Below are positions 3,301-32,802 of a DNA stretch of 35,375 nucleotides, piece by piece. Under the pieces are notes generated by a model that worked only from the letters and a program-made list of their open reading frames with translations, was not told the DNA's origin and ran no database searches. How positions within the stretch are numbered: the first letter of the stretch is position 1; each line of letters begins with the position of its first letter. The DNA is taken from the NCBI RefSeq assembly GCF_024220515.1, contig NZ_JAMXOT010000077.1, positions 1-35,375 on the forward strand, written 5' to 3'. Source of the stretch: Oscillatoria sp. HE19RPO (GTDB taxonomy: Bacteria; Cyanobacteriota; Cyanobacteriia; Cyanobacteriales; Laspinemataceae). Position numbers and translations under genes: made by a program.

Positions 3301-4046
3301 CTTATGATGCTTACCAGATGGTGGAACATCTCGATCGCAATCCGAATGAGGCTCACTCGCTAATTTGGACTCTAAATCGTGACCAAAATACTATCTATGC
3401 CCTTGATCCAAAAGGCCCGTTTGCCGATGATATTTATGAAATGTTTTTGTTGATGTTCAATGGGCAACTTGAACCCGAAACGAGTGCTGAATTCATTGAG
3501 CGAGTGAGTATCCCTGGACGACAAACTCAGCGGACGGTAGAACTTTTTTCTGGGGAAGTGGTTCCGGTGCTTAATGTCCAGAACCCCCGAGGGATGTATG
3601 GGTGGAATGTGAATAATTTAGTTGAGGCAGCTTTAGCAACTGTAAATAATGCTGAAGCGGTGGGGGTAGAAAATCTCCGGGAAGGGCTGACTGCTTTTTT
3701 AAATCGGGTGTATTACGATTTATATAATATCGGGCAAACCTCTCGCGATCGCGCCCTGAATTTTGCAGTCACCAATACGTTTCAAGCTGCTGCTACCTTT
3801 GCGGAGGCGATCGCCTCTGAGCGACAACTCGACACCATCGAAGTCCAAAAAAGTCCCTACTGTCGTCTCAATAGTGATTGCTGGGATGTGCTGCTCACAT
3901 TCTTCGATCCGGAAGATGGGAGGCGATCTCGTCAGGTGTTTCGCTTCACCATTGATGTGGCCGATAGTATGCCGGTGACGGTGGGAAGTATCAAACGTTG
4001 GGCAATTCCGGGTAAAAAAAAGACCGCAGAGACAAAGCATGATTGA
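321..4046 (+). CDS. PatG-like cyanobactin maturation protein: SagB-type oxidase + subtilisin-like protease + PatG C-terminal domain
   Basis: The 1241-residue protein has three parts in the order known for PatG. Residues about 1-480 look like a SagB/ThcOx thiazoline/oxazoline dehydrogenase: an N-terminal region, a linker with FHNLLFHSRCRQGRHDY, then an FMN nitroreductase fold starting near IEQRASIREYD (about 275). An acidic Glu/Ser linker (about 485-570) contains two similar segments. Residues about 574-880 are a subtilisin-like serine protease with catalytic Asp601 (VILDGNPDH), His676 (ACHITS) and Ser836 (GTSMAAP). After a Ser/Pro/Ala linker, residues about 954-1235 match the PatG C-terminal region (VYALGTIGYDFGD). 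In the PatG family the protease cleaves the C-terminal recognition sequence and macrocyclises the core peptide, while the oxidase aromatises azolines. No precursor peptide, PatA, PatD or PatF gene is visible downstream, and only 320 bases are available upstream. There is no clear ribosome binding site; the start rests on ORF extent. Confidence 0.85.
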   Translation: MRTYPFAVSLNSTIQVSTTADGYALSPANTDPSQSIAPSMVTLPAITGMSDALAHLQEGTATLQQLTQTLSAQEGPEAGEQLALMLQEIGDRGWLQYAVLPLAIAVPMVESAELNLDIPHWTRASVSLSRFAYQRSHEGGMVLESPLSKFRVKLLDWRSSAILAQLAQPLSLGWVTPPPQIGAETAYQFLNLLWATGFLTVEAEAPELKLWEFHNLLFHSRCRQGRHDYLTGDIAASLEVWDEFPVVKPAMSGQIVALPQLSIDAIRQKDKTLTTAIEQRASIREYDENHPITIEQLGELLYRTARIKEIYTHDAEQTELLKAQFGEDFEWGEISRRPYPCGGAMYELEIYLAVRRCEGVKPGLYHYDPLNHQLAQLDAADADIQALIKDAHQSSGEQGMPQVLLIITARFGRLFRKYRSLAYALVLKHVGVLYQNLYLVATNMGLAPCSLGAGDSDRFARATGLNYVVESSVGEFMLGSLPKANIQASGVDDSVEDNIHASEELAVEAIAIEAESASIGSSEVENQATIHPSELDSEIEATEVESDSVGLSEVETQPTAVVASAASTAKHPHDLDDRIPGLAELRNQTLGDSRITIVILDGNPDHTLSCFEGAEISKVFPYWHPPAEPVPTEAYLLFQAIGKDDTLDKDQKAEAQKAAFPESLLKRIHGDNHACHITSTIVGQENTPSPGLAPRCRVINVPLNTTGTDEEFISPINLARAFELGLELGANIIHCAACRPTQTGEGEEILLQALKKCQDNNILIVAPAGNNKGECWCMPASLPGVLSVGALKPDGTPYKFSNWGGNNALEGIMAPGGEILGAQPANEEPVRLLGTSMAAPVMTGLCGLLMSLQLQQSKPVDAEAVRAALLNTAIPCTPDDTDEPERCLRGKVNLPGVMGLLFGSSVTISFAGEQVTRTEHTSVITSSAPPSPSASPAPSASPAPSAVKPSKAHSGQVYALGTIGYDFGDAARRDTFKQNMAAVNLNGMMVPPDPYDAYQMVEHLDRNPNEAHSLIWTLNRDQNTIYALDPKGPFADDIYEMFLLMFNGQLEPETSAEFIERVSIPGRQTQRTVELFSGEVVPVLNVQNPRGMYGWNVNNLVEAALATVNNAEAVGVENLREGLTAFLNRVYYDLYNIGQTSRDRALNFAVTNTFQAAATFAEAIASERQLDTIEVQKSPYCRLNSDCWDVLLTFFDPEDGRRSRQVFRFTIDVADSMPVTVGSIKRWAIPGKKKTAETKHD

Positions 4047-16364: not shown

Positions 16365-16397
16365 ACCTGGGGGGAGAGATAAGAAACCGGGAGGGAC

Positions 16398-17060
16398 AAG
16401 AAACCGGGTTTCTAGTAACATCTCTGGTTCTCATCAAAAACTGAGGTAAGAAACCCGGTTTCTAACTCTGGGGTAAGGGACCAGAAACCGGGTTTCTAGC
16501 AACATCTCTGGTTCTCATCAAAAATTTAGGTAAGAAACCCGGTTTCTAACTCTGGGGTAAGGGACAAGAAACCGGGTTTCTAGCAACATCTCTGGTTCTC
16601 ATCAAAAATTTAGGTAAGAAACCCGGTTTCTAACTCTGGGGTAAGGGACAAGAAACCGGGTTTCTTGCATCATCTCTGGTTTTTATCAAAAATTTAGTCA
16701 AGAAACCCGGTTTCTAACCTGTTGAAGGGGGACAAGAAACCGGGTTTCTTGCATCATCTGGGGTTTTTATCAAAAATTTAGTCAAGAAACCCGGTTTCTA
16801 ACCTGTTGAAGGGGGACAAGAAACCGGGTTTCTAGCAACATCTCTGGTTCTCATCAAAAATTTAGGTAAGAAACCCGGTTTCTAACTCTGGGGTAAGGGA
16901 CAAGAAACCGGGTTTCTTGCATCATCTGGGGTTTTTATCAAAAATTTAGTCAAGAAACCCGGTTTCTAACTCTGGGGTGGGGGACCAGAAACCGGGTTTC
17001 TTGCATCATCTGGGGTTCTCATCAAAAATTTAGTCAAGAACCCCGGTTTCTAACTCTGGG
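16398..17060. repeat. Tandem array of eight 84-bp units with paired inverted repeats
   Basis: Units start at 16398, 16482, 16566, 16650, 16734, 16818, 16902 and 16986, with exactly 84 bases each time. Every unit holds AGAAACCGGGTTTCT and, 50 bases on, AGAAACCCGGTTTCT, which are exact reverse complements (one change in the last unit). The linkers contain CATCTCTGGTT and TCAAAAATTTAG. Two linker subtypes (CTCTGGGGTAAGG and CCTGTTGAAGGGG) are interspersed, suggesting unequal exchange. A diverged half unit precedes 16398. The last unit stops abruptly at 17060 where a toxin remnant begins. Confidence 0.95.
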
Positions 17061-17230: not shown

Positions 17231-17533
17231 ATGAATTTAAAACCGATTAAAACTGAGGCAGATTATCGTCAAGCTTTAGCGGAGGTTGAACGGTTATTTG
17301 ATGCGCCTGTAAATACGACTGATGGGGATAGACTTGAGGTTCTGACCACCCTAATCGAAGTCTATGAAGAACAACATCATCCGATTGAGTTACCATCACC
17401 TTATGAGGCCATTTTATACCATCTGGAAAGTCGCCAGCCACCTGTTTTAAGTTTTATTGATGGATTGAAGCGGCGCGGGGTAAGTGAGCAGGTGATTCAA
17501 GAGGCTTTAAATGAATTGATAATTGAAAATTGA
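17231..17533 (+). CDS. HigA-like antitoxin lacking a recognisable helix-turn-helix
   Basis: The 100-residue protein begins MNLKPIKTEADYRQALAEVE and continues through DGDRLEVLTTLIEVYEEQHH and PIELPSPYEAILYHLESR. This is the N-terminal toxin-binding region typical of HigA antitoxins. HigA proteins usually continue with an XRE-type DNA-binding domain; here the C-terminus (VLSFIDGLKRRGVSEQVIQEA) is short and shows no clear helix-turn-helix. It may be truncated or a variant. GAGG lies about 9 bases before the ATG. The cognate toxin is reduced to a remnant just upstream, so this would be an orphan. Confidence 0.75.
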   Translation: MNLKPIKTEADYRQALAEVERLFDAPVNTTDGDRLEVLTTLIEVYEEQHHPIELPSPYEAILYHLESRQPPVLSFIDGLKRRGVSEQVIQEALNELIIEN

Positions 17534-17541
17534 GGGGAAAA

Positions 17542-17784
17542 ATGAGCAGTCAAGGGTTAGCTGGGCATCAGAATAAAGTGCCACTGCGCTATAAATGAAC
17601 TTTTGTGATTGTTGAGGCGGGCCAACCTTTTGCTAAAATTGCTTCTGCCAAATCTGAGGGAATTTTAGAGGCGTTTGATGCTTTGGCAATTCGCCTTTTT
17701 GATGAGGGTATAGACTTAGAGGGTGATGATATTTTTGCCAAGATTCGAGACGATACCCCAACCCCTGAAACGCTTTGCTTGTGA
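17542..17784 (+). pseudogene. Small gene interrupted by an in-frame TGA
   Basis: An ATG at 17542 preceded by GAGGGG opens an 80-codon frame that meets TGA at codon 19 (17596-17598) and then stays open to TGA 17782-17784. The downstream part reads TFVIVEAGQPFAKIASAKSE and EGIDLEGDDIFAKIRDDTP, with protein-like composition. It follows the HigA-like gene by 8 bases. I do not recognise the family. A nonsense mutation is the simplest reading; a sequencing error or a downstream restart are alternatives. Confidence 0.55.
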
Positions 17785-17816
17785 TGATGAAAATAATTTA
17801 TCTTTTTTGAGGTAAT

Positions 17817-18065
17817 ATGATGAGCCTAGTGATTTCCGAAGACATTGTTAAAGCTAGTGGACTTTCTGAACAGGAGTTAATTATCGAGTTGGTATTATTG
17901 CTGTTTCAGCAGGAAAAAATTAGCTTGGGTAAGGCAGCAGAGTTACTGAATTACTCGCAGGTTAGATTCCAACAAATTCTATCAGAGAGGGGCATTAATA
18001 TTCATTACGATGTGGAGGAATTGCAGGAGGATATACAGGATTTAACGGCTAAGGGATGGCTATGA
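17817..18065 (+). CDS. UPF0175 family antitoxin
   Basis: The 82-residue protein matches UPF0175. An acidic N-terminal part (SEDIVKASGLSEQELIIELV) is followed by LFQQEKISLGKAAELLNYSQ, a likely helix-turn-helix, and a C-terminal ERGINIHYDVEELQEDI toxin-binding tail. GAGGT lies just upstream of two consecutive ATGs (17817 and 17820). The stop overlaps the start of the PIN-domain toxin gene by 4 bases (ATGA at 18062-18065), typical of translationally coupled toxin-antitoxin pairs. Its role would be to neutralise that toxin and autoregulate the operon. Confidence 0.85.
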   Translation: MMSLVISEDIVKASGLSEQELIIELVLLLFQQEKISLGKAAELLNYSQVRFQQILSERGINIHYDVEELQEDIQDLTAKGWL

Positions 18066-18551
18066 TTGTTGTGAGTGATACTTCTCCTTTAAGTGGGTTG
18101 GCTCGCCGGTTATCTGGGGTTATTAGAACAACTCTACGGACGGGTATTGATTCCTTCGGGGGTTTTGCATGAATTACAGCGAGGAGGAGAAGATGACCCG
18201 CGCATCACAGATGTGTTGGGTCTTGATTGGATTGAGGTTCGCCAACCCACTAATCAACAACTGGTAAATGTTTTACAAACTGAACGTCATTTAGACCGAG
18301 GAGAATCAGAGGCGATCGCATTGGCATTGGAAGTGAATGTAGAAGAATTATTGATTGATGAACGGTTAGGACGAAGGGAAGGGATTAATTTAGGGTTGTC
18401 GCTTACGGGATTATTAGGAATTTTGCTAGTGGCAAAGCGTCGGGTTTTGACTACTCAGATTAGACCGATTATGGAGAGTTTAATCTGGGAGGCTAATTTT
18501 CGGATTGGGCCAAATTTATATAGAGAGGTTTTAGCGGCTGCTGGGGAATGA
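18062..18551 (+). pseudogene. PIN-domain (DUF3368) toxin with a frameshift
   Basis: The first frame starts MIVVSDTSPLSGLA, which carries the first acidic active-site residue of the PIN/VapC-like DUF3368 nuclease family. Just after this, around 18104-18108, the homologous sequence moves to another frame and continues GYLGLLEQLYGRVLIPSGVL, DRGESEAIALALE, LLIDERLGRREG and GLLGILLVAKRR. A one-base insertion or two-base deletion explains it. A downstream GTG (18093) could restart translation, but the product would lack the N-terminal aspartate. The UPF0175 antitoxin gene overlaps it by 4 bases. Confidence 0.85.
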
Positions 18552-18652: not shown

Positions 18653-18706
18653 GACTCGCGGGGATGGGGTAAAATCAGGATGGTATCCCCTACCCGGTGT
18701 GTGGCT

Positions 18707-21700
18707 ATGGATGAACAACGAGTGCAGGCTTATCTCTCTCTGATTAAACAACTCCTCGACTGTCCCAGTGGGGAGGAAGTGCAAATCCTCGACGAGCATC
18801 TGGAGTTGGTGGATGAGGGGTTTGTGCGAGTGTGCGGAGTGTTGGCGGAACAGTTGCAGGAGGAGGGGGAGGAAAGTACGGCGGCGTTTTTACGGGATGT
18901 GGTGCAAGAGGTAGAGGAATATCTCAATTCATATGAAGATGAGGATGATTTCATAGAAATCCGAAGTTCCCCCACGCCGGAAGACTATTTCAACTTTTTA
19001 ATAGATGTATTGCAAGCTACTCAAGATAGTCAGGGTAATCCCAATGTGGTTTATCCGCTGCTGCAACATAACCTTGATAAATTGGATAAAAATCTGTATG
19101 ATATTCTGCCAATATTGGCGAGTCAAGTTTTGAAAAAACATGAAAACAATCAAGTGATTAAATTTGCAGCAATCATTGGTGAATTTGCTAATTTAATTCA
19201 GCAGTTTCCCTTGGGAATTAGAGCGGATAATCTGGAAATTGGAATTATAGGTTATGAAATTAGCTTAACTGTTTTCACACAAGAGAGACACCAAAAAATA
19301 TGGGCAAAACTTCAGAACAATCTAGGGACTGCCTACTCCGACCGCATTAAAGGAGAGCGTGCGAACAATCTTGAGCAGGCTATTGTTGCCTATAAAGCAG
19401 CATTAGTAGTCCATACTCGTGAATCATTTCCAAAAGATTGGGCATTGACTCAAAACAACTTGGGGAATGCCTATCGTGACCGGATCAGAGGAGAGCGAAT
19501 AGACAACCTAGAACAGGCTATTATTGCTTATCATGCGGCATTAGAAATACTTACCCGGGAAGACTATTCAACCGATTGGGCGACGACCCAAAATAATCTG
19601 GGGCTTGCCTATAGAAACCGGATTAAAGAAGAACGAGCGGATAACTTAGAATATGCTATTGCCGCTTTTCAATCTGCCTTAGATGTTTATAATTTTACTT
19701 CTTTTACTGAAGATTGGGCAATGACTCAAAATAACTTGGGTACTGCCTACTATTACCGGATTAAAGGAGAGCGATCGGATAACTTAGAATATGCTATTGC
19801 CGCTTTTCAATCCGCTTTAGAAATTTATACCTCTACTACCTTTCCTGAAAAATGGGCAATTGCTCAAATTGGTTTGGGTGCAGCCTACTCTGACCGCATC
19901 AAAGGAGAGCGGGAGAATAATCTTGAGCAGGCTATTATTGCCTATAAAGCGGCATTAGCAGTTCATACCCGTGAAGCTTTTCCCGAACATTGGGCATTGA
20001 TTCAAAATAACTTGGGGCTTGCTTACAGTAACTTGATGGGCGAAGAGCAAGCGGACAGCTTAGAACGGGCAATCGCTTTCTATACAGCGGCATTAGAAGT
20101 TCGTACCCGTACCTCCTTTCCTTACGAATGGGCACAGACTCAAAATAATTTAGGCAACGCCTATTGTGACCGCATTCAGGGGAAAAAGGTGGGTAATATA
20201 GAACAGGCAATAGCTGCTTTTGAATCTGCATTAGACATCTATAACCATAAGGCATTTCCCTATGAATGGGCAACGACTCAAAATAACTTAGCCAATGCCT
20301 ATGTGGAAATAGATAAAGTCGAAGCTGCTACGATCTGTTACCGAGCCGCCTTACAAATCTATACTCCTTCTTCCTTTCCGCTCAACTGCCTTGGAACCGG
20401 ACGCAACCTCGGCGACCTGAGTTATGACCTCCAAAACTGGGAAATCGCCATCGAAGGATACAACCAAGCCATCCTTGCCATCGAACAAAGCCGCTACTGG
20501 GCGACCTCCGAAGCCACCAAACGGGAACTGATCGCCAACTCCCTCAATATCTATCAAAAAATGGTGCAAGCCTGCATCAACCACCAAGACTACGCCCAAG
20601 CCTTGCTCACCGTCGAACGCAGTAAATCCCGCACCCTGATCGAACTCCTCGACAGCGCCCACCTCTACCCCAAAAACGCCACGGACCAACAAAAACAACG
20701 CATCAGCGACCTGCGCCGTCAAATCGCCATCTACCAACAACAACTCGCCTACACCCCCAGCGACACCCTCACCCCCACCACGGAGAAGCACCCCAACCAA
20801 CCCTCACCCCAAACCCTCATCCGCCAACAACTCCAAGCCGCTAACCAGCAATTCCAAGACCTGCTCACAGAACTCGACGACCCCAACTTTAGCCTCACCC
20901 AACAAGTCCCCCCCCAACTCCCGGACTTGCGCCGCCTCCTCCCGCCTCAAACCGCCCTGATCGAGTGGTATCTCCCCAGGGAAGCGGACTCCGGGTTTTA
21001 TGCCTTCCTCGTCACCCGCCGAGAGGAGCAAATCCAGATTACCCCCCACCCCTTCAGCGCCGAGGACCGCCAACACCTGGACCAAGCCCTACAGGACTAC
21101 CGCAGCGACTACGGAAAACCCACCTGGAATCAGCAACTCCCCCAACGCCTGGAAACCCTCAGCAGTGCCCTGCAACTCCCCCGCATTCTGGCTGAATTAT
21201 CCGAGATTCAACAGCTCATCCTGATTCCCCACCGGGAACTGCACCTCATCCCCCTCCACGCTCTCCCCGTCTCTCTCACTTCGCCTTCTGGGAGTGAGGG
21301 AAAACCCTTGCAAGACTGGTTCCCGGTGCAATATGCCCCCAGTTGTCAAATTCTCAACAACCTCCAGCAGCGTCCCCCCCTCAACCGGGAAACGGTCCCC
21401 TTCTTCGCGATTCAAAACCCGACGGAAGACTTGGACTATGCGGAGTGGGGGGTGGAACTGTTGCGTCGCCAATTCAGCCCCCATCAAGTCTTGCGTCGCC
21501 ACCAAGCTACCCTGGATAATTTCACCCAACCCCACACCCAAACCTTCCTTGAGCAGAGTCACGCGGTCCACTTTGGCTGTCACGGTGAGTTTGACGATCG
21601 CAACCCCCTCAACGCCTATCTGAGACTGGCAAATCAGGAAAAGCTGACCTTTCTGGATATTTTCAACGGTCTTAATATTCCCCTCTGTCGCCTGCTGGTG

Positions 21701-22081
21701 CTGTCGGCTTGCAAAACTGGCTTGGTGGAAACTTCCCACACGGATGATTATGTGGGATTATCCAGTGCTTTTTTCTACGCCGGAGCGCGAACGGTGGTCG
21801 CCAGTCTCTGGAATGTGGATGAACTGGCCGCGACTCTGGTGACCCTGCGCCTCTATCAAATTTTACCGGATTATCCCTCGGTGACAGTCGCCCTGCAATC
21901 GGCTCAAACCTGGTTGCGGGGGTTATCTTCTGCTGATGTTCTGGACTGGCTAAAACATGACCAGAAGGCGACGGAGGAGGAAGTGGAAGAAGTGGAAGAC
22001 CGTTTGAGTACATTTGATGATCCTGACTCCCCCTTTGCTAATGCCTATTATTGGTCAGCGTTTACGGCAACGGGTTTATAA
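18707..22081 (+). CDS. TPR-CHAT domain caspase-like protease
   Basis: The protein is 1124 residues from the ATG at 18707; an upstream ATG at 18680 would add nine. I prefer MDEQRVQAYLSLIKQLLDCP because, from memory, cyanobacterial relatives begin this way. After an acidic N-terminal module come about eight TPR-like repeats of roughly 50 residues (about 200-610) with the core ALTQNNLGNAYRDRI. The C-terminal CHAT domain (about 750-1120) has the putative dyad His959 (HFGCHGEFD) and Cys1002 (LVLSACKTG), plus AFFYAGARTVVASLWNVD. CHAT proteins are caspase-like clan CD peptidases, often effectors or activators in bacterial immunity and cell death. The downstream two genes are closely packed. The TPR half is AT-richer than the C-terminal half, which uses many C-ending codons. 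Confidence 0.9.
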   Translation: MDEQRVQAYLSLIKQLLDCPSGEEVQILDEHLELVDEGFVRVCGVLAEQLQEEGEESTAAFLRDVVQEVEEYLNSYEDEDDFIEIRSSPTPEDYFNFLIDVLQATQDSQGNPNVVYPLLQHNLDKLDKNLYDILPILASQVLKKHENNQVIKFAAIIGEFANLIQQFPLGIRADNLEIGIIGYEISLTVFTQERHQKIWAKLQNNLGTAYSDRIKGERANNLEQAIVAYKAALVVHTRESFPKDWALTQNNLGNAYRDRIRGERIDNLEQAIIAYHAALEILTREDYSTDWATTQNNLGLAYRNRIKEERADNLEYAIAAFQSALDVYNFTSFTEDWAMTQNNLGTAYYYRIKGERSDNLEYAIAAFQSALEIYTSTTFPEKWAIAQIGLGAAYSDRIKGERENNLEQAIIAYKAALAVHTREAFPEHWALIQNNLGLAYSNLMGEEQADSLERAIAFYTAALEVRTRTSFPYEWAQTQNNLGNAYCDRIQGKKVGNIEQAIAAFESALDIYNHKAFPYEWATTQNNLANAYVEIDKVEAATICYRAALQIYTPSSFPLNCLGTGRNLGDLSYDLQNWEIAIEGYNQAILAIEQSRYWATSEATKRELIANSLNIYQKMVQACINHQDYAQALLTVERSKSRTLIELLDSAHLYPKNATDQQKQRISDLRRQIAIYQQQLAYTPSDTLTPTTEKHPNQPSPQTLIRQQLQAANQQFQDLLTELDDPNFSLTQQVPPQLPDLRRLLPPQTALIEWYLPREADSGFYAFLVTRREEQIQITPHPFSAEDRQHLDQALQDYRSDYGKPTWNQQLPQRLETLSSALQLPRILAELSEIQQLILIPHRELHLIPLHALPVSLTSPSGSEGKPLQDWFPVQYAPSCQILNNLQQRPPLNRETVPFFAIQNPTEDLDYAEWGVELLRRQFSPHQVLRRHQATLDNFTQPHTQTFLEQSHAVHFGCHGEFDDRNPLNAYLRLANQEKLTFLDIFNGLNIPLCRLLVLSACKTGLVETSHTDDYVGLSSAFFYAGARTVVASLWNVDELAATLVTLRLYQILPDYPSVTVALQSAQTWLRGLSSADVLDWLKHDQKATEEEVEEVEDRLSTFDDPDSPFANAYYWSAFTATGL

Positions 22082-22114
22082 TGGAGGAGAGTTAAGCCAT
22101 TATGAGGTCGGACG

Positions 22115-22489
22115 ATGCCCACTGCTGAAAATGAACGAATTGTGCGGGCTTTTTTACTGCTTCTCCATCAAGAAAGCCAAAAACCAGAGAGTGCGATTAT
22201 TCCCCCCAAGGCTTGGGAAACTTTAGGCGAACTGAAAGCCAGCCTCGCTCAAGCTAATGATGATGTGAGAACCCTCGCCCGAGGGATTACGAACTGGTGT
22301 CGAGAACATCAATATAGTTCCATTTTACAGGCTCTCCGACCCGTCCAAGGTGATGCGATTCCTGAAGAGGAAGACCCGGATGAGGACGAAACTGAAACGC
22401 AAATCCTGAGAGTCAGTAACTTATCTCTAAGATTTGTGGAGGAAACTATTAGTCAATCTCAAGAGCAGCATCAGCAGCAATCATCATGA
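22115..22489 (+). CDS. Small acidic protein of the CHAT operon
   Basis: I do not recognise a named family in this 124-residue protein. The first 80 residues look helical (NERIVRAFLLLLHQESQKPE, then WETLGELKASLAQANDDVRT and GITNWCREHQYSSI). A very acidic stretch follows (PEEEDPDEDETET), then a short helix and a Gln-rich tail. It starts 33 bases after the CHAT stop with GAGG upstream, and its stop overlaps the start of the next gene by 4 bases (ATGA). That coupling suggests a complex with the membrane protein or a role as regulator or protease substrate. Confidence 0.7.
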   Translation: MPTAENERIVRAFLLLLHQESQKPESAIIPPKAWETLGELKASLAQANDDVRTLARGITNWCREHQYSSILQALRPVQGDAIPEEEDPDEDETETQILRVSNLSLRFVEETISQSQEQHQQQSS

Positions 22490-24126
22490 CCGAGCCTATC
22501 ATTTATGCTCCAGAAATTCGCTTGTTTACCTATCATTTAAAACGCCTCAAAACCACTGACCTTAAAGCAACCGATAAGGATTTAGATTTGAGGTCAATGA
22601 TTGCCTATTATTTGCAGTTATTGGCGGATTATGGACTATTAAATTCGCTTATCAAGAAGTTACAGCAAGACATTTTATTCCCTTTGTCAATTTGGGAGAG
22701 TTGGCTTCCGGATATTGATAAAATTCAGGTTTTGGTTTGGTGGAGTCAACCGAACCTAACTCTGCTCAAACTCTTCATTGATTTAGACAATCATCTGAGC
22801 AGCTTGACCCTAGAAGATGTCATTCAAGACTATCTATTTCGGTCGGATTTTGAAAAATTAACGAGTGCTAATAGTCCATTTTTTCAAGGCATTAAGAATC
22901 CGGGCAAGATAGGCATTCAACGAATTAATTTCAATTCAAGATATCGCGGGTTTTTCCACCCTCAATATATTAATGATAGCTATAGTTTTCTACTGCACTT
23001 ATTCCATCCCCAGAAACAAGGAAAAGATGGGGTTAAATTCTCAGAGATTGCAGAATTAAGACCTCCTACGTCATTTTTTAACGGAACCTCATCAACCCTG
23101 GACCAACCCCTGCAAACCCATCTCCAGCAAGCATTTTGGGGGACAACGATTCTGTTTAGTGGTTTTATCGACTCTTCCGCAGCGAGTCTGGAGGGGAGTA
23201 AACCATTAGCCAATCAGTTATTACAAAACCTGTTAGGAGTTGAATCCCTAGAATCAGCGCCGCCTTTCTTCGCTTGTCGAGAGTTTTTAGGGGGATTTCT
23301 GTATGAGTATCAGGATGTTTATAATCGCCATCCCTACGGACAGATTCTGATTTTGCTGATTTTTTTAGAAGAGAGTAAAGAGAAACTCAATGCGGTTCAG
23401 TGGTCTTTGCCGGAGTTGTTTTGTTATGAACGCAAGATTTTTCAAAATTACCTAGACAGTCGGGGGGAATATAAAAAGGCGAATCAGGATATTGAAACGA
23501 TAGAAGAGACGATTCGGACGTTTCCGCCTAATATTGCGACGAATATTCCACCGGATTTGTCCGACAAAGAGTTAAGGTTATTAAAACAGGAAATTAAGAA
23601 TTTGTTGGACTTATCGTTGCGCTATTCGCAGCGAATGCGGAGTTTGGTCACTTTCGAGAATACGATTGAGATTAATCGGCAAAATTATCTGAATACCTTG
23701 ACGCGGATGGAGGTGAAAAGTCAAAGTGATTTGACGGGTTGGCGGAATCAGTCGAATCAAATTTTTGGGATGTTTCAGGGACAAATTAAAGCGGATTTGG
23801 TGTATCTGCAACAAGGGGAACGGCTGTTAGATACGGCAATTAATACGATTCGCGGTTTGGTGGAAATTGACCAGGCGGAACGCGATCGCATTCTGGAAAA
23901 CAACATCCAAATCATCGGGGTGGGGATTGCGGTGGGGGCGATCGTTGCCTCTACCTCAGCGTTAATCTTTCAGCAAGAACCGATGACTTTTCCCTGGGAA
24001 GCATCCCACGGCGATCGCCCCCATCCGTTTATTTTTGCCTTGCTGCTGAGTTTCGCCTTTGCTGGTTTAGCGTCACTCGTGGCGATCGCCTTGATTAAGT
24101 TCAGGAAAAAGCGGCGATCGCCTTAA
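22486..24126 (+). CDS. Uncharacterised protein with CorA-like helical stalk and two C-terminal membrane helices
   Basis: The 546-residue protein has a large soluble N-terminal region of no family I can name (about 1-340). A helical region follows (about 355-470) with QGERLLDTAINTIRGLVEID and QAERDRILENN. Two membrane helices lie at about 475-496 and 515-538, joined by an 18-residue loop containing PWEASHGDRPHP, and a basic end RKKRRSP. Long helices running into two terminal membrane segments resemble CorA-type channels, but the GMN motif of CorA is absent. It is translationally coupled to the small acidic protein and downstream of a CHAT protease, so I infer a membrane-acting effector or sensor. 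A transport role cannot be excluded. Confidence 0.7.
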   Translation: MTEPIIYAPEIRLFTYHLKRLKTTDLKATDKDLDLRSMIAYYLQLLADYGLLNSLIKKLQQDILFPLSIWESWLPDIDKIQVLVWWSQPNLTLLKLFIDLDNHLSSLTLEDVIQDYLFRSDFEKLTSANSPFFQGIKNPGKIGIQRINFNSRYRGFFHPQYINDSYSFLLHLFHPQKQGKDGVKFSEIAELRPPTSFFNGTSSTLDQPLQTHLQQAFWGTTILFSGFIDSSAASLEGSKPLANQLLQNLLGVESLESAPPFFACREFLGGFLYEYQDVYNRHPYGQILILLIFLEESKEKLNAVQWSLPELFCYERKIFQNYLDSRGEYKKANQDIETIEETIRTFPPNIATNIPPDLSDKELRLLKQEIKNLLDLSLRYSQRMRSLVTFENTIEINRQNYLNTLTRMEVKSQSDLTGWRNQSNQIFGMFQGQIKADLVYLQQGERLLDTAINTIRGLVEIDQAERDRILENNIQIIGVGIAVGAIVASTSALIFQQEPMTFPWEASHGDRPHPFIFALLLSFAFAGLASLVAIALIKFRKKRRSP

Positions 24127-24130
24127 AGCA

Positions 24131-24466
24131 AAAAACCACGTTTCTGGCAAAATCTGTGTTTCTGTGGAAAAAATTTAGGAAAGAAACCCGATTTCTAACT
24201 CTGGGGTGGGGGTCAAGAAACCGGGTTTCTCGCAACATCTCTGGTTTTCAGCAAAAATTTGGTCAAGAAACCCGGTTTCTAACTCTGGGGTGGGGGTCAA
24301 GAAACCGGGTTTCTCGCAACATCTCTGGTTTTCAGCAAAAATTTGGTCAAGAAACCCGGTTTCTAACTCTGGGGTGGGGGTCAAGAAACCGGGTTTCTCG
24401 CAACATCTGTGTTTCTGTGGAAAAATTTGGCAAAGCAATCCGGTTGGTGAGAACCCGTTGTCCCTA
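24131..24466. repeat. Second tandem array of the 84-bp repeat, four units
   Basis: Units start at 24131 (diverged), 24215, 24299 and 24383, again exactly 84 bases apart. AGAAACCGGGTTTCT is followed 50 bases later by AGAAACCCGGTTTCT in the middle units. The spacer here reads CTCTGGGGTGGGGGTC. The last unit decays after 24420. Because 84 is a multiple of 3, long repetitive frames cross the array on both strands, but they are not genes. 24467-24622 shows nothing more. Confidence 0.93.
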
Positions 24467-24829: not shown

Positions 24830-25026
24830 TATATTTACCTCTATATTTTATCGACAGATGCAATGCGTTCCTTCGGCTAGAATACCTACTTCCGTTTTTC
24901 CCCATTGAGCAAGCGATCGCCTGGGGAAAAATGAACGATTAGATTATTTGATATTTTTTACAACTTTTTTGTAAGTGTTGTCAAGCCTTGACCCAAATGA
25001 GTTACAAGGTCCCTCGATTCTCCTGA

Positions 25027-28208: not shown

Positions 28209-28823
28209 TTAAATCACAAACTCTTCCGTGACCCGATCGCGCTCTAAAGTAACCTGAATGCTATAGCGTTCTCCTGGTTGTCCGCTTAACTCCATTTGTA
28301 GGCCGGAGTCAGCATTGCGCGCCACCACCTCATGGAGGCGATCGCCGTGGTGAGAGAGTAAGGTCAGTTGTAACCCGGCGGGTAATTCTGGGCGATCGCC
28401 TTTGGGATAAACCTGGACTAATACCCCGGTTTCCCCGTGAGATTCAGCCTTAATCGTCACAATCAAGGCGATCGAGCGATGCTGGCTATTGTGATGGCCC
28501 AATTGCAACGTTTTAGCCCGTTTTACCCCTGCGGTTTCCCGGATTAGCGCCAGGGAATCTTCTTCCGGACAAAAGACTTCATCGATCGCCTGCCATCCCG
28601 GTTCAAATCGCTCTTGAAACCACTTTCCCAAATTCACTGGATTCTGCCATTCCGGTCCTTCTCCCCAGGTTTCTAACCAATCCCCTTCTACATCCTCGAC
28701 ATAAAGATTAACGTGTTCCAGACCCAATCTGATCCGGTTCTCCTGTAAATCTTGAGCCGATTGAAGGGCTTGCCATGCTTGTTCGAGGCGGTCTTTACTT
28801 GATGTTTGGATTGTCGTACCCAT
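28209..28823 (-). CDS. DUF1822 family protein
   Basis: The 204-residue protein fits the C-terminal DUF1822 region of cyanobacterial proteins. The landmarks are LGKWFQERFEPGWQAIDEVF, VKRAKTLQLG, HRSIALIVTIKAE, VQVYPKGDRPELPAGLQLTL and a final GERYSIQVTLERDRVTEEFV. Many DUF1822 proteins are larger and lie near sigma-factor-like or stress genes; this one is short. No signal or membrane segment is visible, so it is likely cytosolic. The function is unknown, and the gene is monocistronic by spacing. Confidence 0.8.
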   Translation of the reverse strand: MGTTIQTSSKDRLEQAWQALQSAQDLQENRIRLGLEHVNLYVEDVEGDWLETWGEGPEWQNPVNLGKWFQERFEPGWQAIDEVFCPEEDSLALIRETAGVKRAKTLQLGHHNSQHRSIALIVTIKAESHGETGVLVQVYPKGDRPELPAGLQLTLLSHHGDRLHEVVARNADSGLQMELSGQPGERYSIQVTLERDRVTEEFVI

Positions 28824-28881
28824 ATCTAAGTCTTTTAAAAAAGGTTTGTTGTCGAATGGAATGTTTAAGAAATCGAGTTTC

Positions 28882-29574
28882 TTAAAAACTAAATTTCAGA
28901 TATTTTGACTCTTCCAGATGGCTGCTGTTATGCAACACCAAATTCACCATTTGACTCACGAATTCTTCTTTTCCTGGATTGTAACTCACAAAAATCCCCC
29001 GCTCTATGTTCCAGTCTTTCAGGGTTTTTTTCCATTCTTCGTATTTATGTTCAGAAAAATCATCAGAGATGCTAGTGACCTGGACGCAAAGTGGTCTGCC
29101 CTTGTTGCTGCTGACGATCGCATCTGTTGCCATAGAAAAATCTGCCACATACCGTTGGACGAGGCTCCCTTCACGAATCTTTATCTTTTGTGCGATTAGG
29201 TCAATCAGTTGAGCATCCTCCTGATTGAATTCTCCGGATCTTAATTTTTGTTTCCAAATGTAAAATTTGTTATCTTTTTCATTAAACCACTTGGGGAACA
29301 GGAATTCATACCAATACCGGACCGGGGGAGTAAGCTGATTTAAAAATGATTCCCGTTCCTCATCGGTGAGAACTTTCAGCGCTAACCAAAATTCTGCATC
29401 CTTGATGACTTCGAGCAGAAACCCCATTAAAAATTTTTTCTGCATTAATAAACCCGGTCTCATATCTTTGATCCAACGCCAGATTTCCTCCAAACGGTAC
29501 TCTAGCCCTGGATCCACTGAGGAAGCTATCCCCATGAGTTCCCTAAGTTTCGGCTCGATTTCAATGGCTTGCAA
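28882..29574 (-). CDS. Hypothetical protein, possible PD-(D/E)XK-like nuclease fold
   Basis: The 230-residue protein begins at TTG (29574), preceded by GGGGGAG 4 bases upstream; the first ATG is codon 14. The N-terminal half is helical with many Trp, Phe and Leu (FLMGFLLEVIKDAEFWLALK). The C-terminal half has VQRYVADFSMATDAIVSSNK then CVQVTS, KYEEWKKTLKDWNIERGIFV. The order of acidic residues, a beta strand with Q-x-T and a later helix is compatible with a restriction-endonuclease-like fold, but the lysine of the motif is missing. I do not recognise the family. Confidence 0.6.
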   Translation of the reverse strand: MQAIEIEPKLRELMGIASSVDPGLEYRLEEIWRWIKDMRPGLLMQKKFLMGFLLEVIKDAEFWLALKVLTDEERESFLNQLTPPVRYWYEFLFPKWFNEKDNKFYIWKQKLRSGEFNQEDAQLIDLIAQKIKIREGSLVQRYVADFSMATDAIVSSNKGRPLCVQVTSISDDFSEHKYEEWKKTLKDWNIERGIFVSYNPGKEEFVSQMVNLVLHNSSHLEESKYLKFSF

Positions 29575-29707
29575 ACACTCCCCCTACATCCGCCAAGCGC
29601 TTTTCAAAGCATATTTATGATCTTACTGTAAAAAGTGACCGTCTGAATAGAGGGGCGATCGCCCTCCCGATAGAGATTCCCAGTGAAATCCCACTCCGGT
29701 TAAACCT

Positions 29708-31906
29708 CTACTGGAACTGCCACACCTTAATTGTATTATCTTGACTCCCACTTGTCAGCATTTTGCCATCAGCACTAATCGAAAGCGAATTAATCGTATC
29801 CGAATGACCCTTAAGAGTCTGTAACAATTCTCCTGTGCCAATATTCCAAAGTTTCAGGGTACTATCGAGAGACCCACCGCCACTGACCAACGTCTGACCA
29901 TCAGGACTAAAGGCGATCGCGTGTACCGCATCAGAATGTCCGAATAACGTGCGGACCAACTGACCACTACTCACCTGCCAAATCAGAATCGAACTGTCTC
30001 CACTGGCACCAGCCACCCACTGACCATTGGGACTAAAAGCCACCGACCGAAACCGATAGAACCCCCCTTCTAACGTGCGGACCACCTCTCCGGTTTGAGT
30101 ATGCCAGATTTTAATCGAGCGATCGAAACTGCCACTGGCTAACAGTTGACCATCGGGACTATAAGCTAAGGAAAACACCCAACCCGAGTGCCCGGCGATC
30201 GACCGAATCAACTCCCCACTGTCCACATTCCATAACTTAATCGTATTATCAAACCCACCAGAGGCTAACTGCTTGCCATCGGGACTAAACGCCACCGACA
30301 TCACCCAAGCCGCATGATCCGTTAGGGTATGTAATAGCTTACCCGTACTCGTGTCCCAAACTTTTATCGTCCCATCTCCACTACTACTGGCGACCTTACT
30401 GCCATCGGGACTAAAGGTCACTGACCAAATTTCATGGGAATGACCGGATAAACTCTGGCGGACCTGACCGGATTCAAGATCCCAGATCTTTACCGTTTTG
30501 TCAACGCTACCACTGACAAGCAGGCGGCTATCGGGACTCAGCGCGATGGAATTAACCCCCCACAGATGACCCCCTAGGGTTTTCGCTAAGGTGATAGGAC
30601 TGGAGGCAGCTAGGGGTTGAGCCGATACCGTAGCGATCGGGGTGAAGGGTTCCGGGTTAGCGGGAACTTCAGGCATCACCCCAGGACTGCCATAGTTCAA
30701 CCAGAGTAAAGCGGAGATATTCGGTACTGTAAATCCGCCAAAGAGTTGAGTGGCTGTTCCCGCTAAGGCTAAGAAAAATCCACCCACGAGCAATTTTGGA
30801 GCTAATTTTAGGGCTTTTTTGTGATGAAAGCGCGACGATCGCCGACTGTGACGACTATAATTTCTGGCACTATTCAATCGCAGCAGACGAGTGGGAATCC
30901 TTGCTGCTGCTTGATAAGGTCGGATTCCAGCAATCGGTTGAGGCGATCGCGCAGGCATTGGGGAAGAACCCCAAGGTTGCTGCATCTCCTGTTCAATTTC
31001 CTCCAACCGCTTTAAAATTACCTGAGTATTTTGGGGGCGATTTCCCGGAAAAGGGGCCATCATGTAATCAATACAATCCGCCAAAGGATTCGTCGTGAAT
31101 CCCGCTGTGGGACTGTGGCGACTCCCATCCGATCGCCACAAAAGTTGACCCGTGCGCGTATCTTCAGGAAAGGCATTGGGTTCCTTTCCAGTTAACAGAA
31201 ATACAAAGGTTCGTCCTAGAGCAAAAAAATCCGATTGGGGAACCGCTTTGCCATTCGCCTGTTCTGGAGGCGTGTAACCGGGAGAAACAATTCCCGTAAT
31301 TTGATGACCCCCTCCCACTTTTGCCAGATAGGTTCCCGTCACCTCTCTAGCACTGCCAAAATCAATCAACGCCAGTTGACCATTCGGCTGAAGCATGATG
31401 TTGGAGGGTTTGATATCGCGGTGGAAAAACTGCTGTTGATGGACAATATTTAAAATTTCCCCAAGCTGTTTCAACCAATTGAGGGCCTGATGCTGGGGAA
31501 TCGGCAAATGATGGCGATCGGCCATCCACGCCTCTAAATTTCGGCCCTCAATCCGTTGCATCACCAGACAGTGTAACGGCTGCTGGCTATTTCTGGGCAG
31601 CACGGTAAAGTAACCCTCTGCTTCCACCCGGGGAATCCCGGGGTGATTCAAATGGCTTAAAACTTGAGCTTCGCGCTGAAACAGGGCGATCGCCTTGGGA
31701 TTATCATCAGTCAGGACCTTCAGAACCTTGAGGACCCCCCCATCATTCACCTCAAAGGTTTGACCAAACCCCCCTTCCCCCAATAATCGCCCAATCCGAT
31801 AGCGCCCTTGGAAAATCAAAAGCGAACCACAATGCCGACAGATGCGGTTCTGTGCATTTAAGGGGTCAGCCCGATTGGGGCATTTAGGATTGAGGCAATA
31901 ACTCAC
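29708..31906 (-). CDS. Serine/threonine protein kinase with zinc ribbon and seven WD40 repeats
   Basis: I place the start at GTG 31906 (732 residues), giving the N-terminus MSYCLNPKCPNRADP common in cyanobacterial kinases; a TTG at 31921 would add five. Cys4, Cys9, Cys23 and Cys26 form a zinc ribbon. The kinase domain (about 35-300) has the glycine loop GEGGFG (43-48), HRDIKPSN (about 162), DFGSA (about 183) and SPGYTPPEQ. A membrane helix lies near 370-390 (LLVGGFFLALAGTATQLFGG). Seven WD40 repeats (about 445-732) end in IKVWD or LKLWN motifs and likely form a propeller outside the cytoplasm, a plausible ligand sensor controlling the kinase. The targets are unknown. Confidence 0.92.
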   Translation of the reverse strand: MSYCLNPKCPNRADPLNAQNRICRHCGSLLIFQGRYRIGRLLGEGGFGQTFEVNDGGVLKVLKVLTDDNPKAIALFQREAQVLSHLNHPGIPRVEAEGYFTVLPRNSQQPLHCLVMQRIEGRNLEAWMADRHHLPIPQHQALNWLKQLGEILNIVHQQQFFHRDIKPSNIMLQPNGQLALIDFGSAREVTGTYLAKVGGGHQITGIVSPGYTPPEQANGKAVPQSDFFALGRTFVFLLTGKEPNAFPEDTRTGQLLWRSDGSRHSPTAGFTTNPLADCIDYMMAPFPGNRPQNTQVILKRLEEIEQEMQQPWGSSPMPARSPQPIAGIRPYQAAARIPTRLLRLNSARNYSRHSRRSSRFHHKKALKLAPKLLVGGFFLALAGTATQLFGGFTVPNISALLWLNYGSPGVMPEVPANPEPFTPIATVSAQPLAASSPITLAKTLGGHLWGVNSIALSPDSRLLVSGSVDKTVKIWDLESGQVRQSLSGHSHEIWSVTFSPDGSKVASSSGDGTIKVWDTSTGKLLHTLTDHAAWVMSVAFSPDGKQLASGGFDNTIKLWNVDSGELIRSIAGHSGWVFSLAYSPDGQLLASGSFDRSIKIWHTQTGEVVRTLEGGFYRFRSVAFSPNGQWVAGASGDSSILIWQVSSGQLVRTLFGHSDAVHAIAFSPDGQTLVSGGGSLDSTLKLWNIGTGELLQTLKGHSDTINSLSISADGKMLTSGSQDNTIKVWQFQ

Positions 31907-31979
31907 GGCAACTCTATCCAACGATTGAGGATATCTTGATTATCCTAACTTTCCCTGGGAAAAAACAACTATCCTTGGT

Positions 31980-32680
31980 CATACGTCGTTATCAAGAAAT
32001 GACAGGGTGGATTGGTCATGGGTCATTGGTCCTTTGTCATTTGTCGTTTCCTCTTGACGTGGCGATCGCCATCACAGCAGCAATCTGAGGGTCTATCAAC
32101 AGCAATTGAAATTGCTCCTTTTTGTTCGTAGTAACGACTTCAGTCGTTGCCTCTTGACGTGGCGATCGCCATCACAGCAGCAATCTGAGGGTCTATCAAC
32201 AGCAATTGAAATTGCTCCTTTTTGTTCGTAGTAACGACTTCAGTCGTTGCCTCTTGACGTGGCGATCGCCATCACAGCAGCAATCTCAGGCTCTACCACC
32301 TACCTGCTGGGGAATTGGAGGCAGAGCTTGACATGGGCGTTACTGGGCTTCAGCCAACTAACGAGGAAACGACTGAAGTCGTTACTACAAACAGAAGAGT
32401 TGGTCCTTTGTCATTTGTCGTTTCCTCTTGACGTGGCGATCGCCATCACCGCACCAATCTGCGGGTCTACCAACCGCAATTGAAATTGCTGCTTTTGTTC
32501 GTAGTAACGACTTCAGTCGTTGCCTCTTGACGTGGCGATCGCCATCACAGCAGCAATCTCAGGCTCTACCACCTACCTGGTGGGGAACTGGCGGCAGAGC
32601 TTGACATGGGCGTTACTGGGCTGAGGCCCAGTAACGAGGAAACGACTGAAGTCGTTACTACAAACAGAAGAAAACGACTT
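31980..32680. repeat. Nested repeat block: 100-bp units, composite repeats and palindromes
   Basis: A unit beginning CTCTTGACGTGGCGATCGCC starts at 32051, 32151, 32251, 32425 and 32524. The first two units are identical at 100-base spacing and end in TTCGTAGTAACGACTTCAGT. A second module (GGCAGAGCTTGACATGGGCG onward) occurs at about 32287-32400 and 32560-32672, ending in AACGACTGAAGTCGTT. Remnants of the CATTTGTC heptamer repeat are at about 32036 and 32406. An open frame of 78 codons (32247-32483) crosses the block but follows the repeats. Confidence 0.88.
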
Positions 32681-32682
32681 CA

Positions 32683-32802
32683 TACCAAATCCGGGTATGA
32701 AAAGTCGTTTTTATGGAGTAGCCCGCGCAGGCGGGCTTTGTCCGTGTAGCCCCACCCTTGAGGGTGCGGGTTTTTATAGACCTTTGACAACCGGATTCTG
32801 TA
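32683..32802. mobile_element. 120-bp miniature element inserted in a palindrome, 3-bp target duplication
   Basis: Ends are TACCAAATCCGG and, inward from the right, TACAGAATCCGG (10 of 12 match). TCA flanks both sides (32680-32682 and 32803-32805). Removing the element and one TCA restores AACGACTTCAGTCGTT, the palindrome repeated throughout the region. The core has GCCCGCGCAGGCGGGC, TAGCCCCACCC, and CACCCTTGAGGGTG followed by GCGGGTTTTT. It is the best-preserved copy of the element at 7843-7964, and a partial copy lies at 1-80. Confidence 0.75.
32753..32775 (+). terminator. Rho-independent terminator-like hairpin inside the miniature element
   Basis: CACCCTTGAGGGTG folds into a stem, and GCGGGTTTTT follows. 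The same structure with a T-run occurs at about 7911-7934. If transcribed on the plus strand it would be a plausible terminator. Confidence 0.45.

Follow-up and report, generated by a model that had tools for sequence, protein, structure and literature searches.

The DNA examined here (the window) is a stretch of 35,375 bp from the cyanobacterium Oscillatoria sp. HE19RPO (contig NZ_JAMXOT010000077.1, positions 1 to 35,375 of the forward strand), whose genome assembly comprises 7.67 Mb in 511 contigs. It contains a cassette of three genes encoding, in order, a protease with TPR repeats and a CHAT domain (the CHAT protein), a small protein (SM) and a membrane protein (TM) (Table 1). An earlier note on this DNA had described these open reading frames (ORFs), and we recovered all three in the same order, with the same spacing and overlap: SM starts 33 bases 3′ of the CHAT gene, and the start of TM overlaps the end of SM by 4 bases. 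Counted from its first ATG, the CHAT ORF spans 18680-22081 and would encode 1133 amino acids (aa); the start at 18707 is likely the better one because the segment M..QR.AYL..LL.CPS opens the ORF in two relatives (L036 and L227). The residues that the earlier note gave as His959 and Cys1002 are His968 and Cys1011 when counted from 18680.

Table 1 Features of the three-gene cassette and of its immediate surroundings in the window
Feature	Position	Strand	Details and basis
TPR-CHAT caspase-fold protease gene	18707..22081	+	1124 aa; switch and presumed sensor
138-bp tandem repeat array, coding for 46-aa TPR units	19331..20018	+	TRF
CHAT domain	21149..22075	+	Pfam and alignment of linked relatives
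Codons of CHAT His968; Cys1011	21581-21583; 21710-21712	+	Numbering from 18680
SM, small protein, presumed adaptor	22115..22489	+	124 aa; N-terminal part, acidic linker, tail
TM, membrane protein of an undescribed family, presumed effector	22486..24126	+	546 aa; alignments of relatives
TM stalk (..IRG.VEI.QAERDR..), running into membrane helix 1	23773..23901	+	Residues 430-472; conservation
TM membrane helix 1 (approximate), Gly-rich (G478, G480, G484)	23902..23961	+	Residues 473-492; hydropathy, column counts
TM membrane helix 2 (approximate), HPF before, basic tail after	24022..24090	+	Residues 513-535; hydropathy, column counts
UPF0175 antitoxin-like gene	17817..18065	+	Pfam, NCBIfam/PADLOC scans
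DUF3368 PIN-like toxin gene, apparently without a start of its own	18093..18551	+	Profile scans; comparison with L040/L051 by eye
84-bp repeat array, left of the island	16392..17060	not assigned	TRF
84-bp repeat array, right of the island, same repeat family	24169..24445	not assigned	TRF

The CHAT, SM and TM genes are conserved as a real unit. We assembled 81 loci, namely that of the window and 80 of the 160 loci in named genomes that were fetched by similarity to TM; all 80 are cyanobacterial and come mostly from filamentous genera. Scoring a CHAT gene as linked when it lay on the same strand no more than 4.5 kb upstream of TM, we found one in 59 of the 81 loci, with 14 others too short upstream to judge. 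SM was detected in 55 of the 59 CHAT-linked loci and in 64 overall, and the 4-base SM/TM overlap recurs in 15 of these 64. The test of conserved three-gene synteny that the earlier note had suggested thus came out in favor of the cassette, the TM genes being not mostly CHAT-free. For a count free of the bias in that locus set, we used two near-complete genomes (G004, in 3 contigs, and G021, in 1), after dropping a CHAT row on G004:C3 and the second piece of one TM row. A CHAT gene lies within 4.5 kb upstream in 15 of the 20 TM rows of these genomes, as compared with a mean of 0.36 and a maximum of 3 in 2000 runs of random placement; conversely, TM lies downstream in 14 of 96 CHAT rows, and all 11 SM rows are downstream of a TM-linked CHAT. 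A hand count in seven genomes placed TM after SM in 21 of 23 SM rows. Because the order recurs in many genera, far above random placement, chance is excluded. The TM family is patchily distributed, with relatives in 36 of 292 sampled genomes of the phylum (E 1e-20) and in 36 of the 59 genomes drawn as relatives, its own included (E 0.001); the source genome alone has about 15 TM matches.

The unit is also visible in the proteases. In the window protein the CHAT domain (PF12770) is matched at 151.5 bits, against a cut-off of 24 (E 4.4e-44), and the large TPR array of which the earlier note had spoken is borne out by the 138-bp repeats. The catalytic dyad is kept in the linked relatives: the His is present in 68 of 68, and the Cys in 67 of 67, of the 72 linked rows that have sequence there, the rest being gaps. 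At sister loci of the window site the CHAT protein measures 1133, 1263 and 1740 aa, differences that are apparently due to TPR copy number. A quick maximum-likelihood tree was built from 96 CHAT domains of at least 220 residues, including 36 of the 45 CHAT matches in the source genome. In it, all 62 TM-linked domains fall into one group of 64 (SH-aLRT 99), inside which lies the CHAT of the window; the two unlinked members of that group sit near contig ends, on the TM side, and the 32 CHATs outside it are all unlinked (28 of them from the source genome). The program flagged several long branches in this tree, and fine placement is unsure. Distances in the CHAT and TM trees are correlated across 48 loci (Spearman 0.83, 0 of 999 permutations). 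A pair of cysteines near the active site (C967 and C1003) is present in full in 64 linked and 2 unlinked rows, absent in full in 33 unlinked and 2 linked rows, and mixed in 1; we considered a redox switch and make no such claim, because the pair tracks the grouping of CHATs and may reflect a single change in an ancestor.

Neither of the two partner proteins could be assigned to a known family. The SM of the window has no match in Pfam, NCBIfam or PADLOC, and TM has only a sub-threshold match to FtsX in these libraries (13.2 bits against a cut-off of 25.5). Weak Pfam scans of 54 SM and 72 TM relatives gave no convincing recurrent family among the matches listed, and profile searches of the PDB returned nothing convincing for SM (best E 0.28) or TM (best E 0.16). 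The possibility that TM is a housekeeping transporter, which the earlier note had named as an alternative outcome, was examined through these family and profile searches, none of which matches TM convincingly. Alignment of SM relatives reveals an invariant Trp61 in the N-terminal part and a near-invariant Asn102 in the tail. At its C-terminus TM has a conserved stalk, then a pair of hydrophobic segments separated by a short loop (about 20 residues, variable in length), and a basic tail; the earlier note had described a helical stalk and two membrane helices in the window protein, in which the two segments and the basic tail were found here. With a simple hydropathy threshold, two C-terminal hydrophobic segments are seen in 53 of the 72 relatives, that of the window included, and the tail of the 72 contains on average 3.4 Lys and Arg residues versus 0.4 Asp and Glu. 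Six of the nine columns that are invariant among the 72 proteins lie in the juxtamembrane stalk.

The length of this stalk varies in an unusual manner. In 91 distinct TM proteins, the distance from G457 to G484, which covers the stalk and the beginning of membrane helix 1, differs from that of the window by 0 (41 proteins), 18 (24), 7 (20), 11 (3) or 36 (1) residues. Thus 89 of the 91 fit one of these five values, and of the two that do not, one is truncated at a contig end (−1) and the other is a divergent paralogue (+1). Elsewhere in TM, segments either hardly vary in length (317-329, 363-401 and 438-456) or take many consecutive lengths (219-269, 329-363 and 484-514). On a quick TM tree from which the columns between G457 and G484, the cut L062 and the divergent L188 had been left out, and in which long branches were flagged, parsimony requires 23 changes between the length classes. 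In a further 44 TM rows, the 12 that were measurable all fit 0, 7, 11, 18 or 36, and the remaining 32 are without the motifs used for the measurement. Because 7, 11, 18 and 36 are near whole numbers of helical turns, the stalk is probably one continuous rigid helix that runs into membrane helix 1 and whose rotational phase with respect to that helix matters. This pattern is the clearest mechanistic signature in our analysis, and it fits a mechanically gated effector and a receptor signaling stalk equally well.

Some TM proteins have exchanged their protease. In a divergent TM branch that has no upstream CHAT, TM lies head-to-head with a gene encoding a caspase (C14)-nSTAND1 protein in 11 loci, plasmids of Tolypothrix and Microchaete among them; these proteins also carry WD40 repeats or, in Tolypothrix, trypsin. 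The nSTAND1 part was detected by Pfam in six of the 11 (L038, L194, L195, L197, L200 and L211) and by BLAST in the rest, and all 11 align at the caspase His and Cys motifs. On a TM tree of 129 rows (a quick tree that leaves out L062, L188 and L189 and has flagged long branches), the C14-nSTAND1-linked TMs cluster, with 2 changes, and 10 of the 11 fall into one group of 11 (support 68). An SM-like gene of 153-178 aa accompanies TM in 10 of the 11 loci. By hhalign, these STAND-type SMs match the long SMs of CHAT loci (probability 96.5%, E 9.5e-10), and the long SMs match the window-type SMs weakly (33.9%). The tail Asn is kept in all three classes (STAND-type 10 of 10, long CHAT-linked 11 of 11, window-type at least 90% of 54). 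We considered this Asn as a cleavage site; docking on TM fits better, because the residue is also found in the SM-like proteins on the C14-STAND side and in the long CHAT-linked SMs.

Two fusions, each a single case, bear on the roles of SM and TM. The CHAT protein of L227 has an SM domain (E 2.6e-6) fused at its end, and TM comes next. The TM relative of L232, which adjoins a CHAT gene, keeps the cytoplasmic part (33-394) and is without the hydrophobic helix, its highest 19-residue mean being 1.04 versus at least 1.72 in the 72 relatives; it carries instead a bDLD1 domain (25.9 bits, marginal against a cut-off of 25) and a Trypsin_2 domain (52.6 bits). These arrangements therefore suggest that the membrane end of TM behaves as an exchangeable output and that SM works with the protease.

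The composition of the cassette varies in further ways. The TM genes that have neither partner (4 of the 20 rows in G004 and G021) may be co-opted, silent or served in trans; no common neighbor was seen beside them, some lying next to a histidine kinase or, as judged by reading, an FAD-oxidoreductase-like gene. In some relatives toxin–antitoxin (TA)-like and other accessory genes, identified partly by reading, stand between CHAT and SM, among them a UPF0175/DUF3368-like pair. In L041 (4580-6774) and L053, this position is taken by two genes, one ATPase-like (420 aa) and one of 307 aa, which on reading the sequence look like an OLD/TOPRIM-type defense pair. Within the source genome, a CHAT near a contig end (L178, G000:C364:28140-29099) and an SM-TM pair at a contig start (L032, G000:C76) look like one cassette split by the assembly, and a very divergent TM-like ORF (L189, G000:C85:3155-4723), with a TM match confined to a short stretch, lies next to a Cmr3 CRISPR gene.

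At the window site the cassette behaves as an accessory island, as the earlier note had supposed: sister genomes are full, decayed or empty there. The flanks are conserved within the genus, and among eight same-genus genomes the cassette is present in the source genome, G004 and G006, internally deleted or replaced in G002, and absent from an empty site in two (G003 and G007). G005 has a divergent version (TM 56%) beside the right flank, with the left flank not on that contig, and in G001 contig ends interrupt the site. The junction in G003 falls at the 84-bp repeat, where no more than about 40 bases separate window position 16498 from 24864. The flanking repeats reported earlier are indeed of one family on both sides of the island, and both arrays match one and the same stretch of L243. 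The broken TA genes reported upstream of the cassette correspond to the UPF0175 gene and a DUF3368 gene whose start looks cut; because G004 and G006 lack the DNA at 17531-18250, which takes in UPF0175 and the beginning of the PIN gene, the pair looks inserted. Elsewhere, TM is found on 8 plasmid records, all from Nostoc, Tolypothrix or Microchaete. On the Nostoc plasmid pC052_C (PLSDB type conjugative), CHAT, SM and TM lie between transposase genes, with SM and TM annotated as hypothetical.

The other identified genes of the window (a tRNA methyltransferase, DUF1517 proteins, a MatE transporter and a PsbO-type protein) look mostly like housekeeping genes. We also observed, at 17231-17533 (+), a 100-aa ORF that matches the first 71 positions of the PADLOC model PD-Lambda-2_B and, just beyond the right repeat at 24862-24939 (−), a glutamine riboswitch aptamer (Rfam RF01739, 52.9 bits, cut-off 35). 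Farther out are a 1241-aa protein at 321-4046 (+) that, like cyanobactin maturation proteins, combines nitroreductase/ThcOx oxidase, subtilase and PatG domains; at 28209-31921 (−), three adjoining genes, for a short protein that matches the end of DUF1822, a protein unmatched in Pfam and a WD40-repeat protein kinase; and a single CRISPR-DR28 repeat match at 32719-32742 (−) beside 100- and 273-bp tandem repeats (32043-32671).

Bacterial gasdermin (bGSDM) systems have a protease gene, sometimes with NLR-like or death-domain-like parts, beside a membrane-acting effector. The cassette resembles them in placing a protease gene beside a presumed membrane effector; unlike them, it has a TM protein of 430-580 aa with a stalk and C-terminal alpha-helices, and an extra small protein that is nearly constant. 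We found no gasdermin match for TM, SM or, in the lists obtained, their relatives in Pfam, NCBIfam or PADLOC, libraries whose content of bGSDM models was not checked. According to the portions consulted of PMC9729208, TPR-CHAT proteins are implicated in cleaving or activating bacterial gasdermin, and in Craspase the TPR-CHAT protein adjoins its substrate, Csx30; on this reading, and by analogy, the cassette would work like a gasdermin-type module. Craspase itself (type III-E CRISPR, with the TPR-CHAT protein Csx29 and with Csx30, Csx31 and RpoE) likewise combines a TPR-CHAT protease with dedicated neighboring partner genes, and the best PDB matches of the window CHAT, six of eight in all, are Csx29/Craspase chains. 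Its partners are, however, unrelated to SM and TM. The window CHAT scores 69.3 bits against the Csx29 model (NCBIfam NF041237, cut-off 300), and neither Cas7-11 (gRAMP) nor Csx30 was among the 20 window proteins scanned with Pfam; by these tests the cassette is not a Craspase.

Death-like, trypsin, caspase and nSTAND1 parts occur in conflict systems of multicellular bacteria, as described in the parts consulted of PMC7159879, PMC8195603 and PMC10907252. The ternary and EAD conflict systems among them (Kaur 2020, PMC7159879; Burroughs 2021, PMC8195603) are, in those parts, like the cassette in being cyanobacterial and multi-copy, in their caspase, trypsin, nSTAND1 and bDLD1 components, and in having membrane-proximal variants (EACC1, SLATT). 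The cassette differs from them in being without the MoxR-vWA core: MoxR ATPase and vWA genes were absent from the 20 window proteins scanned, the relatives not having been scanned for them. No SLATT match was obtained for the window TM, nor among the 25 Pfam families listed for 31 and for 72 TM members; EAD was not among the families listed for SM; and bDLD1 was found in one TM relative only, L232. The order CHAT-SM-TM does not appear in the portions consulted of PMC7159879 and PMC8195603, and a text search of the open-access literature found no description of the cassette. In the parts consulted of PMC12799240, effectors are served by either trypsin or caspase partners: Canu and the trypsin/caspase-nuclease pairs resemble the TM loci in that one effector family is combined with different protease classes by locus, the protease there activating the effector, and are unlike them in that the effector is an MBL-fold nuclease rather than a membrane protein.

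Taken together, the conserved synteny, the single CHAT group, the co-variation, the fusions and the presence or absence at one site bear out the earlier proposal of an uncharacterized three-gene protease, linker and membrane system. We interpret it as a cassette of filamentous cyanobacteria in which a protease would switch a membrane effector in biological conflict, probably in an anti-phage or other cell-death or dormancy response, a reading to which we give a probability of roughly 0.55. In particular, the TPR array of the CHAT protein would bind the trigger, or a complex that binds it, and TPR length differs between sister loci as it does in recognition domains. The protease, with its conserved dyad, would then be released. 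SM would couple it to TM, with the N-terminal domain docking on the CHAT protein, to which it is fused in L227, and the Asn-containing tail docking on TM or gating it. TM would be anchored by its two C-terminal helices, with the cytoplasmic part mechanically tied to membrane helix 1 by the phase-locked stalk. Cleavage of SM or TM, or a rearrangement driven by the protease, may move or oligomerize the Gly-rich helix and so permeabilize the membrane, and the damage would lead to death or dormancy. As the gene arrangement of the C14-nSTAND1 loci suggests, a related effector pair could be driven by C14 fused to an NLR-like nSTAND1 NTPase, the trigger being sensed by TPR or WD40 repeats.

Several observations weigh against this interpretation. 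Eight of the 81 TM loci have no CHAT despite at least 3.5 kb of upstream sequence, as do 5 of the 20 TM rows in G004 and G021, one of which (L196) has C14-nSTAND1 instead; among 43 hand-picked loci, 10 have neither a CHAT nor a C14-nSTAND1 partner, a fraction that is not a rate, the 40 extra loci having been picked by hand from weak or CHAT-less matches. The CHAT and TM trees give the same nearest neighbor in 22 of 48 loci only. On the C14-nSTAND1 side, Pfam C14 (E 0.001) is among the matches listed only for L194 and L197, with none in L195, and the profiles of window-type and STAND-type SMs (classes A and B) do not match (probability 1.7%). One C-terminal hydrophobic segment, rather than two, is seen in 19 of the 72 TM relatives at the same threshold; topology is the sole ground on which TM may be taken to form a pore or channel; and inward-signaling receptors, too, typically have a phase-locked stalk. 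Moreover, we found no TM relatives in phage records or viral contigs.

The direction of signaling could be the reverse. TM might be a membrane sensor or scaffold for envelope damage or a change in membrane potential, from which the stalk and SM relay inwards to the CHAT or C14-STAND protease, the effector in this case, which would cleave cell proteins. Insertions and deletions that preserve helix phase, as in the TM stalk, are typical of receptor signaling stalks, the stalk is where most invariant TM columns are found, and the C14-nSTAND1 proteins look like complete sensors or executors by themselves. Set against this, the short and variable loop between the membrane helices provides no external sensor domain, and the Death-like domain and trypsin that L232 has in place of the membrane module read like an effector swap. 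We regard a sensory TM as unlikely, at somewhat better than one-in-five odds.

Still less probable is that TM is an ion channel or transporter that serves stress physiology, is regulated by proteolysis and has no role in conflict. The magnesium channel CorA has a cytoplasmic domain, a stalk helix that runs into the first membrane helix, a short loop, a second membrane helix and a basic C-terminal tail, and the TM topology resembles this, a stalk helix continuous with membrane helix 1 being suggested by the insert lengths. The several paralogues per genome could serve different conditions, and hhalign aligns CorA with TM across both membrane helices and the loop over 63 columns, with a single-comparison E of 0.0034 and a probability of 9.5%. 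Because this profile comparison is weak and the GMN motif of CorA is absent from the commonest letters of TM columns 487-495, we reject TM as a CorA member and keep CorA as an analogy only. Furthermore, the CorA profile (PF01544) hits 1-2 places per genome in 19 genomes, none of them a TM place, and of 113 weak families for 72 TM members, the 25 listed do not include CorA. Presence, absence and decay at one site, plasmid copies and changes in TPR length are likewise unlike a housekeeping function. In one genome a CHAT-SM-TM cassette (G004:C1:1592281-1596441, −) lies directly upstream of the only CorA match, possibly by chance. Least of all do we favor a selfish, addiction-like cassette that spreads with TA genes and repeats and in which the protease restrains a toxic TM so that loss is punished: TA-like genes within or beside the cassette, bracketing repeats and empty sites are in keeping with it, but TA genes are not constant members, and TM genes have survived in the same genome with no CHAT, as a TM that was always toxic could not unless it had degenerated.

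A filamentous cyanobacterium can have dozens of CHATs, as the source genome illustrates, and we know of no substrate for most of these proteases; the co-varying SM/TM pair would offer, for one group, specific candidates for substrate and effector. The exchange between CHAT and caspase-NLR partners, together with the swap in L232, ties two unnamed protein families to apoptosis-like machinery. It is conceivable, and we put it forward tentatively, that the cassette represents a new class of membrane executioner, so far only cyanobacterial, in which a rigid, phase-locked TM is driven through a small adaptor by TPR-CHAT or C14-nSTAND1, with a Death-like/trypsin version. It would be an independent branch of gasdermin- or MLKL-like death that has grown, in filamentous, multicellular bacteria, to about a dozen TM paralogues and as many as nine CHAT-linked sets in a genome. 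The question of programmed cell death in cyanobacteria would become testable with a small cassette.

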